DNA of 64,000 bases from Oscillatoria sp. FACHB-1407 (GTDB lineage Bacteria > Cyanobacteriota > Cyanobacteriia > Elainellales > Elainellaceae): positions 372,001 through 436,000 of the forward strand of contig NZ_JACJSA010000002.1 in the NCBI RefSeq assembly GCF_014697545.1. The letters run 5' to 3'. The translations under genes were made by a program, and so were the position numbers. Below the pieces are notes generated by a model, which searched no databases, was not told the origin of the DNA, and saw only the letters and a list, made by a program, of their open reading frames with translations. Shown here one piece after another: positions 21,454 to 25,279 of this stretch; position 1 is the first letter of the stretch; every line of letters begins with the position of its first letter.

Positions 21454-22011
21454 ATGACCACTGATCAGCAACCCCCATCAACACGCAACCGACGACTCTG
21501 GCTGATTCCGTTAGGGTGTGGTTGTGGCTGTGCAGGTTTAATAACAGCCATTATTTTGGTGAGTGTTTTTGGGATTTCCTCCTTGTTTCAAGGGTTGTTG
21601 AAATCCTCTGGAGCCTATCAGACCTATCAAATGGCATCTGAGCGACTCAAAACCAATCCGGCAGCGATCGCCGCTTTGGGTGAACCCGTTTCCCCAGGGT
21701 GGGTGAGCAATGTCAAAACCAACGAAACTCCTACCGATGGTGTAACCTGTCTGCGGTTTGGCGTGAATGGGTCTAGAACGAGTGGAACAGCGTATGTGGA
21801 AGCCGAGAAGGTTAGAGGAGCCTGGAATTACTACCACTTCACGCTAAACGTGAATGGTCAACCTGAACCTATAGTGCTCGTCAAACCTCCCGCCGATCGC
21901 CCCCCGTCGCTCTGTCCCGACTTCGATACAGAAACAGACCCTTCTTTGCCTCCTATCGCCCCTTCGACTGACAGCGTTCGCAATAATGCGCCGATCGCCC
22001 CGCTAACTTGA
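21454..22011 (+). CDS. Coa1/Tim21-like single-span protein
   Basis: The 185-residue protein has a short cytoplasmic start, then CGCGCAG followed by one membrane span (about 20-42). The following domain contains KTNPAAIAALGEPVSPGW and GTAYVEAEKVRGAWNYYHFTLNVNG. This pattern is that of the cytochrome-oxidase-assembly Coa1 domain, common in bacteria on small membrane proteins of unknown role. The ATG at 21454 is preferred over an upstream TTG. Its 3' end overlaps mutM by 59 bp tail to tail. Confidence 0.7.
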   Translation: MTTDQQPPSTRNRRLWLIPLGCGCGCAGLITAIILVSVFGISSLFQGLLKSSGAYQTYQMASERLKTNPAAIAALGEPVSPGWVSNVKTNETPTDGVTCLRFGVNGSRTSGTAYVEAEKVRGAWNYYHFTLNVNGQPEPIVLVKPPADRPPSLCPDFDTETDPSLPPIAPSTDSVRNNAPIAPLT

Positions 22012-22876
22012 TGCGAAGAATCGGAGTCTCACACACGCGGCAGGGTTCTCCTTCGCGATCGTAGACCCACGCTACATGACCGTAATTGCCGTTAATTCCT
22101 TCGACATCGCGAAAATCGCTGAAAGTGGTTCCCCGTGACGCGATCGCCGTTTGCAGCACTTGTAGAATAGCCGCGTGGAGTTTTTGAATATGGCGGGGTT
22201 TCAGCTGGCTACACAGCGTTTTGGGTTGAATGCCACTGAGAAACAACGCCTCATCCGCATAAATGTTGCCAATGCCTGCCACAATCGTCTGATCGAGTAG
22301 GGCATTCTTGATGGGGCGATCGCGCCCCTTGAGTTGTTGCGTGAAGTAATTTACCGAAAAAGCCGCCGACAATGGCTCTGGCCCCAATCGCGCCAAGCCC
22401 AACATCACCTGATTGGGCGTCAACTCTGGCGGTATCCACCACATTTGCCCGAACGTGCGCTGATCGACAAAGCGCAATTCCTGATCGTTCTCAAAAAACA
22501 GACGCACACGACAATGCTTTTGCAATGGAGATGTCTGAGACAGCCACAACAGTTGTCCCGTCATCCGCAAATGCGCCCCCAACCAGCCACCAGAGGAGTG
22601 GGTTGAAGCGGGGTCGAATTGATCCCCCCTACCCCCCTTCATAAGGGGGGTGCTGTTTAATGAGGCTTCAGCAGGCACTAACTCCGCCAGCAGATACTTC
22701 CCACGACGATGCCACTGGGCGATCGCTGTACCTTTCACTCCCTCCAAAAAGTCCACTAAAGAAATCGGGTGGGCAATGGTGCGATCGAGCAACACATCCC
22801 CACCCTGAATGGTTTGACCGAGGGTGACTTGGTTTAAACCGCGTCGAACAGTCTCAACCTCAGGTAATTCGGGCAC
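21953..22876 (-). CDS. mutM: Formamidopyrimidine-DNA glycosylase
   Basis: MutM (Fpg) excises 8-oxoguanine and other oxidised purines and nicks the abasic site. The 307-residue protein has the catalytic N-terminus PELPEV (P2, E3), K60 in the RRGKYLL strand, the helix-two-turn-helix region (NALLDQTIVAGIGNIYADEALF) and a C-terminal zinc finger with Cys 279, 282, 299 and 302. About 20 extra residues (about 70-95, STPLMKGGRGDQFDP) lie between two core strands and are encoded by a CCCCCC/GGGGGG palindromic repeat. It lies upstream of Coa1-like and downstream of psaE. Confidence 0.96.
   Translation of the reverse strand: MPELPEVETVRRGLNQVTLGQTIQGGDVLLDRTIAHPISLVDFLEGVKGTAIAQWHRRGKYLLAELVPAEASLNSTPLMKGGRGDQFDPASTHSSGGWLGAHLRMTGQLLWLSQTSPLQKHCRVRLFFENDQELRFVDQRTFGQMWWIPPELTPNQVMLGLARLGPEPLSAAFSVNYFTQQLKGRDRPIKNALLDQTIVAGIGNIYADEALFLSGIQPKTLCSQLKPRHIQKLHAAILQVLQTAIASRGTTFSDFRDVEGINGNYGHVAWVYDREGEPCRVCETPILRIKLAGRSAHYCERCQSKGR
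22631..22651. repeat. CCCCCCTT-CAT-AAGGGGGG palindrome inside mutM
   Basis: The unit ACCCCCCTT (22631-22639), CAT, AAGGGGGGT (22643-22651) is a perfect hairpin, preceded by another CCCCCC block at 22624-22629. It is in frame and adds residues of the type STPLMKGG to MutM. Confidence 0.8.
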
Positions 22877-22982: not shown

Positions 22983-23348
22983 TTAGCGAGATTCCGTTCC
23001 CTGGTTAGGTGAACCTTCTTTTGCAGTGGTGTCTACACCGGGTGCTTCTGCTTCGGCACCAGGTCTAGTATCCTGCTTGATGGCTCCCTGACCAGTTCTA
23101 CGAGTCATAGGCTCAACTGTAGTTTGCTTCCCGCCTGAAGGGGTTTTCTTGGCGGTAGGTGCGCCAACTTCTTCCACTTCAGCCAACGAAAAATTGTTGG
23201 TATTAACGCCTGCGTAATTAACTTTGTCAAAACGAACGATAACGGGGTACTTGATGCCGCTTTGATCGATAGAAGCGACCGTGCCCACATCCTTAAACCA
23301 ATAGGACTCTTTACGGAGAATCCGAACTTTGGAACCGCGTTGAACCAT
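22983..23348 (-). CDS. psaE: Photosystem I reaction-centre subunit IV (PsaE) with a C-terminal extension
   Basis: PsaE is a small SH3-like subunit on the stromal face of photosystem I that helps dock ferredoxin and flavodoxin and supports cyclic electron flow. Residues 1 to about 66 are an almost textbook Psa[36 protein letters not shown] and [13 protein letters not shown]. Usual PsaE proteins end near 70-76 residues. This one continues for about 50 residues that are polar, Pro/Gly/Thr-rich and probably disordered ([26 protein letters not shown]). A GGAAAGGA ribosome site precedes the ATG, and a hairpin terminator follows. Confidence 0.95.
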
Positions 23349-23484: not shown

Positions 23485-24108
23485 TCAATACTTTTGCGGC
23501 TCCACCCAACGCACACGAACGAAGTGAACTGGGCGACCCCAGCGATCGCGACTGGTGCTGATCTCTTCAATTGCCAGGTTAAACGGGATAGAAGTCGTAA
23601 CATATTGTTGCACGATCGCCCCCACATCCGGAGCCAGTTGCGCCCCCGCGATCGCTGCCATACCCAACCCTGCCAACTGCTCGATTGGGCCTTTGGGAAT
23701 CAACCAGGTAATGCCCAACGCCAATCCGGCAGTTAACAGCACCCCCACTGACAAATTTGTGCCACAACGGGGGTGTACTGCCAGATCCCATTCCCCATGC
23801 GTCAACCGTCTCAAGGCAACATAAACGGCTCGATGTAGCTCTGCTGAATCCACTGCACCATAAAGATAAAATCCCTGATCGGTTGACATACCTCCTAACA
23901 AGCGACTGGCAACAGCAGTCTGTGTAGAAGGCGATTCACCCAATACCCAAACGGTCGCGTGCTCTAACGCATGAACCTGACGCAGCATCAGCATTTCTTT
24001 CAGACCAGGGATAAAACTGAGTTGCTGAAGTAGCTCGGTATCTTGGGTAAGGTGGGGCGAAAAATCCAATGGAAATGAATTGGATTGGGCGTTGGTGGAA
24101 GAAACCAT
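23485..24108 (-). CDS. DUF6391-like cyanobacterial protein
   Basis: The 207-residue protein contains the conserved stretch QVHALEHATVWVL (about 44-56), where two His and a Glu could form a metal site. It then has RLLGGMSTDQGFYLYG, HPRCGTN and a hydrophobic Gly-rich segment (about 118-160) that may span the membrane twice. I associate this pattern with a cyanobacterial family of unknown function, DUF6391, from memory. The function is unknown. It lies upstream of psaE on the same strand with a 136-bp gap. Confidence 0.6.
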   Translation of the reverse strand: MVSSTNAQSNSFPLDFSPHLTQDTELLQQLSFIPGLKEMLMLRQVHALEHATVWVLGESPSTQTAVASRLLGGMSTDQGFYLYGAVDSAELHRAVYVALRRLTHGEWDLAVHPRCGTNLSVGVLLTAGLALGITWLIPKGPIEQLAGLGMAAIAGAQLAPDVGAIVQQYVTTSIPFNLAIEEISTSRDRWGRPVHFVRVRWVEPQKY

Positions 24109-24287: not shown

Positions 24288-25043
24288 CTATTGGCGAGAC
24301 GAGGCGATCGCCGCCGCCGCAGGAACGCCAGGCTCAGTTGGTGCTCCGCCTGACCCAACAGAGGTTAAGACCTCAATCCCATTCTCCTCAAAAACGACTA
24401 CAGGCTCAGCCTGATTCATGTCAATTCGTTTCACCAAAATCTGACCATTTGACAGATATTGACCCGCTCTGACATAGCGACTGGTCGGTTCGTTAGGTGC
24501 CTTGACGATAGCGTGTACAGTATTGCCAATCTGCACTACTCCAGTCACCTGTACTGCTCGTGCCAGGTCAGCCTGAGGTGGAGGCGGAACAAAATTTTCA
24601 GGCTCTAGCTGAGACGGTGGAAGTGCTCCAGTCCCTGAAGTATCCGGTGCTGGAGGTGCTGCTGGGGCTTGAGGCACCGATGGGGCTTGTGCGGTAGTTG
24701 TACCAGTGCGTTCGATAACTGGAGTCGTTGGCAGCAACGCAAATGGATCGGGACGGTTGCGCTGAATACTCCGAAGACGCTGATCCGGGTCAGTAGAGCT
24801 GATCAAATCCGGAGGAAGAGTGCCTGCCGGAGCAGCAGGTGAAGCCGTTGCTGTAGGTTGTGTGATTGGAGTGCCTGCCGGAGCCTGTGCCACTGGCGAC
24901 GGTGCTCCCGGAGCAGGACTGGCAGGAATCGGAGTCCCCGTGGGAGGTTGCCCAACCGATGGATCAGCAGGTGGAGAGCCTCCACATCCCCCAAGCCATA
25001 GGGCGAATATTCCTGCTGTTGCAAACAACGAAACGTGACGCAT
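24288..25043 (-). CDS. PilP-like lipoprotein
   Basis: The protein (251 residues from the ATG at 25043) starts with a lipoprotein signal ending in the lipobox LGGC (LFATAGIFALWLGGC). A Pro/Ala/Thr-rich linker covers about 20-160. It contains a DPFALLP segment like those in PilP and GspC. The C-terminal domain (about 160-235: VTGVVQIGNTVHAIV, YVRAGQYLSNGQILVKRID, VVVFEENGIEV) looks like the PilP beta-domain that meets the secretin. PilP links the inner-membrane PilMNO platform to the outer-membrane secretin of type IV pili. No other pil gene is nearby, so this is a moderate call. Confidence 0.65.
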   Translation of the reverse strand: MRHVSLFATAGIFALWLGGCGGSPPADPSVGQPPTGTPIPASPAPGAPSPVAQAPAGTPITQPTATASPAAPAGTLPPDLISSTDPDQRLRSIQRNRPDPFALLPTTPVIERTGTTTAQAPSVPQAPAAPPAPDTSGTGALPPSQLEPENFVPPPPQADLARAVQVTGVVQIGNTVHAIVKAPNEPTSRYVRAGQYLSNGQILVKRIDMNQAEPVVVFEENGIEVLTSVGSGGAPTEPGVPAAAAIASSRQ

Positions 25044-25279
25044 AACCAGTCCCCCCCACAAACATATAGCTATAGAATAATCCAGATCCGTACAAATGAT
25101 CTTAGGAGACTTACGGAATCCACATATCATAACTGATACTGGTTGACAATACACACATATTTAGTGTCGCAAATGTAAATTCTTCATAGATGATGGCAGG
25201 AGCGAAGCCTTCGTTAGAGATTGTAGTTGGGCTACCAAACTTGTTTACCGAATATTTCGCCTGTACACAAGTAATAGTT

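Follow-up and report, generated by a model that had tools for sequence, protein, structure and literature searches.

A tailed photosystem I subunit PsaE in Oscillatoria sp. FACHB-1407 and the module that it shares with free-standing small proteins of cyanobacteria

PsaE is located at the stromal ridge of photosystem I, where ferredoxin binds (available text of PMC8689207 and PMC9467995). In T. elongatus the contacts with ferredoxin are made via Arg3, Ile37, Arg39, Ser53, Asn56, Thr57 and Asn59, as given in the available part of PMC9467995. The solved chain 9eys_E was deposited with 66 residues and ends at the core. A tailed PsaE sequence is already public in structure entry 7qco, in which chain V (126 aa) is named photosystem I reaction center subunit IV; we take this entry to be the photosystem I tetramer of Chroococcidiopsis TS-821. 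The paper on the TS-821 structure (PMC8760143) gives structure entry 6QWJ, not 7qco, and the tail is not mentioned in its available text.

The window, which is the whole 64,000-nucleotide stretch of the Oscillatoria sp. FACHB-1407 genome analysed here, contains a psaE gene that continues well beyond the core. The features referred to throughout are the following (all on the minus strand).

21953..22876, minus strand: mutM (fpg), directly downstream of psaE, marking the common psaE-mutM locus (translation PELPEVETVRRGL)
22983..23348, minus strand: psaE with tail, 121 aa plus stop (ORF list, Pfam, NCBIfam)
23166..23348, minus strand: SH3-like core of PsaE, residues 1-61, without the 7-residue CD-loop insertion (Pfam, AlphaFold2, VIA-align, match span)
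23136..23165, minus strand: linker, residues 62-71, variable between relatives
23085..23135, minus strand: tail motif 1, residues 72-88, with columns invariant or nearly so in fused proteins, and one R and one T invariant in fused and free forms
23037..23048, minus strand: middle motif EAPG, residues 101-104, common, not invariant
22986..23015, minus strand: C-terminal motif, residues 112-121, ending the protein; its G, N, Q, G, T and R do not vary among the 26 modules compared, fused or free

The reading frame starts with ATG and has 121 codons in the window ORF list, and its core part is ordinary. Residues 2-61 score 123.1 bits with PF02427 (PSI_PsaE), for which the cut-off is 27, and the NCBIfam equivalog NF002745 gives 112.2 bits, its cut-off being 88. 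Five strands are predicted by AlphaFold2 at residues 7-62, a five-stranded core which we take to be the fold named 'SH3-like', and the predicted core superposes on the solved PsaE chains 9kc5_E and 9eys_E at rmsd 0.7-0.9 (VIA-align Z 13.3). By profile and by superposition (Z up to 13.3) the core is thus that of any PF02427 protein, whereas the whole protein differs in its 60 extra residues, which form a separate conserved module, and in lacking the CD-loop insertion. Six of the seven ferredoxin-contacting residues are kept, with R4, I37, R39, N49, T50 and N52 of the window protein equivalent by eye to R3, I37, R39, N56, T57 and N59 of T. elongatus. The seventh, S53, has no equivalent because the CD-loop is absent; in the 1jb0_E sequence Ser53 of T. 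elongatus falls inside the insertion.

There is a single psaE in the source genome (8.13 Mb, 66 contigs). The gene directly downstream is presumably mutM, an identity assigned from the motif PELPEVETVRRGL, and this order of psaE followed by mutM is found in 53 of 86 distinct psaE loci. By kind of psaE, mutM follows in 19/20 loop-bearing, 17/21 plain and 17/45 tailed distinct loci, with the window among the tailed ones. Upstream of psaE on the same strand are a 207-aa DUF6391 protein (23485-24108) and a Pro/Ala-rich frame of 288 aa (24288-25154) with, by eye, a lipoprotein-like stretch near its start.

The tail comprises residues 62-121, is Gly-rich (15% Gly), has a mean hydropathy of -1.25 and contains neither Cys nor Trp. 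The original prediction had described a polar C-terminal extension of about 50 residues; the extension is real and hydrophilic, with about 60 residues. Rather than being generic, it forms a defined module whose motifs are conserved and which occurs as a free-standing small protein too. The fused proteins have two conspicuous motifs, GGKQT....RRTGQG and the C-terminal G(D/S)PNQGTE(S/A)R. Over 26 diverse fused and free modules, eight columns are invariant (R, T, G, NQGT and the final R); a few of the other sequences read differ from this at the module end, such as L070 (NQGTESN), L132 (NQGNPSR) and L032 (NQGTTSR). The tail is shared with close relatives: 35 of 36 same-family genomes have PsaE, with 43 psaE genes between them, and the GGKQT...NQGT tail is present in 25 of the 43, from 25 genomes, and missing in the other 18. 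A sequencing frameshift or missed stop, the artefact considered at the outset, is rejected, since relatives of many genera have the tail in common, including its end, and 7qco_V carries it as well. That chain aligns with the whole window protein from end to end, tail included (143.1 bits), differing in the species it comes from. No other PDB sequence was found with the tail profile (E up to 10), and over 126 residues the fused PsaE of genome G040 hardly differs from 7qco_V (251 bits).

Of 946 pairs, the 25 close ones with pS in the range 0.1-0.6 were selected, and their median pN/pS was 0.18 for the tail and 0.13 for the core; as judged from these ratios, the tail is under purifying selection in the closest pairs. 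In an AlphaFold2 model built from 42 tailed sequences, the block means of pLDDT were 91-94 over residues 1-60, fell to 70 over residues 61-70, and were 50-58, with no secondary structure, over residues 71-121. The tail is therefore probably disordered as far as this model goes, in agreement with the earlier suggestion. The source genome has 11 matches to a DNA pattern for PNQGT, and none of the ten outside psaE ends a frame as PNQGTxxR-stop; likewise, the profile search (E up to 10) found the fused copy only. Other extensions of PsaE exist, in L005 (92 aa), L006 and L009 (102 aa each) and L071 (103 aa). Like the window protein these have a PsaE core with an extended C-terminus, yet their ends are Ala/Pro/Lys-rich without the window motifs, and L006 and L009 have the CD-loop insertion.

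Searches with the tail outside the PsaE context revealed where else the module occurs. A profile of the tail only matched in at least 113 of 388 genomes of the class at E 0.1 or better, and a profile of 26 modules, both fused and free, in at least 110 of the 388 at E 0.001. The latter gave at least 124 hits, of which 53 follow a psaE core immediately and in the same orientation (belonging to 52 psaE genes, that of G520 being in two pieces) and 71 do not. The window tail scores 74.1 bits against this profile, being itself among the profile members, and has the marks of the free family: a 49-residue module, the invariant R, T, G, NQGT and R, and a stop at the C-terminal motif. Judged by sequence, the window gene is a PsaE with a second module joined at its C-terminus, a module whose homologues form a family of free-standing small proteins in many cyanobacteria. 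We hold the anatomy of the tailed PsaE and the separable nature of the module with high confidence. The free NQGT(E/D)xR proteins share the module of 49-50 residues and the same C-terminus with the window tail; unlike the fusion, they are encoded by separate genes and have an N-terminal stretch of their own. Their frames have 60-110 codons in the 388-genome profile search, with outlying frames of 55 codons in a species scan and 114 codons in a draw across the phylum. Two kinds can be told apart by eye, type A with a GGYQTP- or GGKQT-like stretch and type B with a TTEEGDTPLDERYRMTGQE-like one.

Counted by genome (at least 110), 41 have only the fused form, 58 only the free form and 11 both. With 9.2 genomes expected to have both forms under independence, strict exclusion of one form by the other finds no support. 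Two of the 11, G022 and G324, have a partial second hit, and in seven others the free protein, when read, was of type B; the remaining two are G436 and G442. In Pleurocapsales LEGE 06147 the fused and free copies (L174, L154) look alike. A scan of 84,980 species found 224 stretches matching GxPNQGT(E/D)(S/A)R, of which 183 were confirmed. The best 80 of these 183 loci consist of 25 fused and 55 free modules, and by their titles all 80 are cyanobacteria, some of them presumably so, having been placed from the genus alone. In Anabaenopsis elenkinii CCIBt3563 a single chromosome carries three copies of the free gene (L194, L197, L200), whose frames translate identically.

Neither Pfam nor NCBIfam has a family for the module; in Pfam one of 18 members gave a single chance-level match (LbR_Ice_bind, E 0.076). 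One free protein had no match in the plasmid collection. No description of the tailed PsaE or of the free family was found in the open-licence literature, including the available text of PMC8760143, PMC8908432, PMC9467995 and PMC8689207. The free NQGT proteins are thus an unnamed small-protein family, and the tailed gene is a PsaE variant undescribed in the open-licence literature searched. Annotation easily overlooks small disordered proteins with a role at the photosystems, and a natural fusion to PsaE points to the probable workplace of one such family.

How the fused and separate states are related can be approached from the psaE-mutM locus. In genome G453 a plain psaE (73 aa) is followed by a free module gene and then by mutM. 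The free gene begins 592 bases past the psaE stop and has a start codon of its own, an ATG with a GAGG 8 bases ahead of it; lying between psaE and mutM, the module thus occupies the same gap as in the window fusion, as a gene of its own. Among the matches listed from the 388-genome search, no other free gene has a psaE on its own strand at a distance of 5 kb or less. In a tree of 82 PsaE cores over 62 columns, 48 of the 79 inner branches are open, and seven changes between fused and unfused states are needed. A single origin of the fusion is possible on these sequences. The split psaE of G453 (L139) stands beside the fused L098 (SH-aLRT 88), and fission is therefore as possible as fusion. Alternatively, the tail might have arisen by read-through into a gene downstream and have persisted by chance, as a neutral extension. 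The gene order of G453 shows a possible route for such read-through and the core tree leaves room for a single event, but a tail pN/pS of 0.18 over the 25 close pairs and the same motifs kept in many families, fused as well as free, argue strongly against neutrality, which we regard as highly improbable.

In the draw across the phylum, PsaE was found in at least 184 of 386 genomes and the module in at least 48 of those 184, all within the class; among the matches listed, none of the 202 genomes without PsaE had the module. Confinement to PsaE genomes fits a link with photosynthesis, and the distribution follows lineage too. A closer tie emerged from the CD-loop of PsaE, in which an insertion of about 7 residues divides the cyanobacterial proteins. 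The insertion was called from the length of the profile match for at least 258 psaE of at least 241 genomes, with two psaE (G016 and G031) set aside; the 52 tailed PsaE of the 388-genome search, every one of them without the insertion, were supplemented by six tailed genes that were read and three from the phylum draw. Among the psaE listed, the insertion is lacking in 61/61 tailed PsaE and in 66/68 tail-less psaE of genomes with only the free module, G584 and G560 of the free-only genomes having no psaE match for comparison. Fourteen of the genomes listed have another psaE besides the tailed one, and in all 14 this other copy carries the insertion. The tailed copy in two-copy genomes was taken as the loop-less one, which was shown by position or reading in 12 plus 2 genomes. 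In genomes where no module was found, 29 of the 113 psaE listed lack the loop and 84 have it, so that loop absence does not require the module. Because the free form goes with loop-less PsaE, there is a tie to photosystem I independent of the fusion, in raw counts which partly follow lineage. Tandem psaE pairs, a few hundred bases apart, were seen at G471:C123:10424-11067, G585:C246:1229-1760 and G563:C210:555-1072.

The reading that we favour, tentatively and at rather less than even confidence, is that the module would be a disordered adaptor, placed at the acceptor side of photosystem I by its fusion to PsaE. The linker would reach out from the stromal ridge, the C-terminal motif in particular, together with motif 1 (GGKQT..RRTGQG), would bind a partner, and the fusion would fix the adaptor at the acceptor side. 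That the ferredoxin-docking face is the place of action had been put forward in the original prediction; as a location it is reasonable, since PsaE contacts ferredoxin in T. elongatus (available part of PMC9467995) and all 61 tailed PsaE lack the loop in which one of those contacts lies. A disordered tail at that face could, as was also suggested there, have an influence on docking, cyclic flow or supercomplexes. A role in the handling of acceptors (ferredoxin, flavodoxin, FNR) seems likeliest because genomes with the module, whether fused or free, have a PsaE without the CD-loop insertion, which takes part in ferredoxin contact in other PsaE. The fusion suggests that the separate small protein also works at photosystem I, although fusion alone does not imply that the free protein binds there. 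The free module probably docks at the acceptor side; it may attach to photosystem I reversibly in the vicinity of PsaE, possibly in stress conditions. A further-reaching proposal, which we consider doubtful, is that the free NQGT proteins are an accessory photosystem I factor that docks at the stromal ridge, controls the use of acceptors (ferredoxin, flavodoxin or FNR) and has become part of PsaE in the lineage of the window and several others. PsaE that is loop-less and goes with the module, versus loop-bearing PsaE, would then be two functional types, exchanged within the cell where both are kept. If true, this split of cyanobacterial PsaE into loop-bearing and module-associated types matters for the reading of ferredoxin-docking mutants and of cryo-EM structures, which may contain the tail without showing it.

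Exchange of PsaE copies would also be expected if the tail were a tag for sorting or turnover, with a protease or assembly factor reading the C-terminal motif and tailed PsaE being replaced as conditions change. The position of the motif at the C-terminus suits a tag, as do the 14 genomes in which tailed and tail-less PsaE paralogs occur together. Free proteins that carry the same tag are nevertheless hard to explain as substrates alone, and the source genome has one psaE and no other PNQGT frame ending in the motif; we consider a tag quite unlikely.

The composition of the tail raises another alternative, that the module acts as a protectant in the manner of hydrophilins, its disordered, hydrophilic chain with much Gly keeping proteins folded under drying or salt stress; the fusion would then merely place it on photosystem I. 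Hydrophilins have over 6% Gly and a mean hydropathy below -1. The window tail, with its 15% Gly and -1.25, falls within this rule, and three free proteins have hydropathies of -1.2 to -1.6 and 9-12% Gly. All 110 hit genomes of the 388-genome search have a size of 4.0 Mb or more, which is in keeping with a protectant. The genes around the free module bear on the same question. From 81 distinct free modules, of 101 in loci, 404 neighbour proteins were collected, and Pfam named six of the nine neighbours scanned. An SDR-type gene is near eight free loci and topoisomerase IB near seven, mostly in Leptolyngbya and Phormidesmis types; a PRC-barrel/DUF2382 protein is near five, mostly in Pleurocapsa types, and L104 is adjoined by a member of the ribosomal S30EA family (hibernation factor). 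SDR, topoisomerase IB, PRC-barrel/DUF2382 and hibernation-factor neighbours are linked with stress, and their presence near the free gene in some lineages gives a hint, though no more than that, of a stress context for this part of the tree. The commonest neighbours, however, are not stress genes: a GNAT acetyltransferase gene lies upstream of the free gene on the other strand in 19 of the 81 loci, in Nostoc-type genomes, and a gene resembling a methyltransferase by eye is near it in 17, again in Nostoc-type genomes. Eight invariant positions and a fixed C-terminus resemble binding motifs and not composition alone, and the tie with loop-less PsaE is left unexplained by a protectant. A search of the open-licence literature found nothing joining hydrophilins and cyanobacterial photosystem I. 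On this balance we find a protectant unlikely, if not strongly so. Photosystem I genes were absent from the neighbour clusters common to three or more of the 81 free loci.

A tail at the stromal ridge could instead join photosystem I monomers or bind a larger partner, such as the tetramer, NDH-1 or the phycobilisome. The tail is carried by 7qco_V, a photosystem I subunit IV chain, and the free form is found in Nostoc-type genomes; Nostoc types form photosystem I tetramers, and adjacency of psaF and psaL is the gene order of tetramer formers. Against this, psaF and psaL are linked in 18 of 48 genomes with the module versus 8 of 31 without it, so that linkage of these genes lends the tetramer no support, and in the source genome psaF is on contig C1 with psaL on C3 and C8, apart from one another. 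The count covers 79 of 80 genomes searched (G142 was left out) and leaves out the second psaF of G017, G023, G029, G202, G453 and G503; in G017, G023, G029 and G453 the second psaF lies beside a second psaL. A function in a larger complex therefore appears improbable to us.

Two psaL genes are present in the source genome (C3:338969-339400 and C8:221583-222014), both off the contig with psaF (C1:236647), and one of them may belong to a light-acclimation set. In other genomes PsaL matches were found inside frames of about 490-630 codons (G040:C41:164593-165033, G053:C13:64317-64745 and others), which is presumably what would be expected for an IsiA-type antenna-PsaL fusion.
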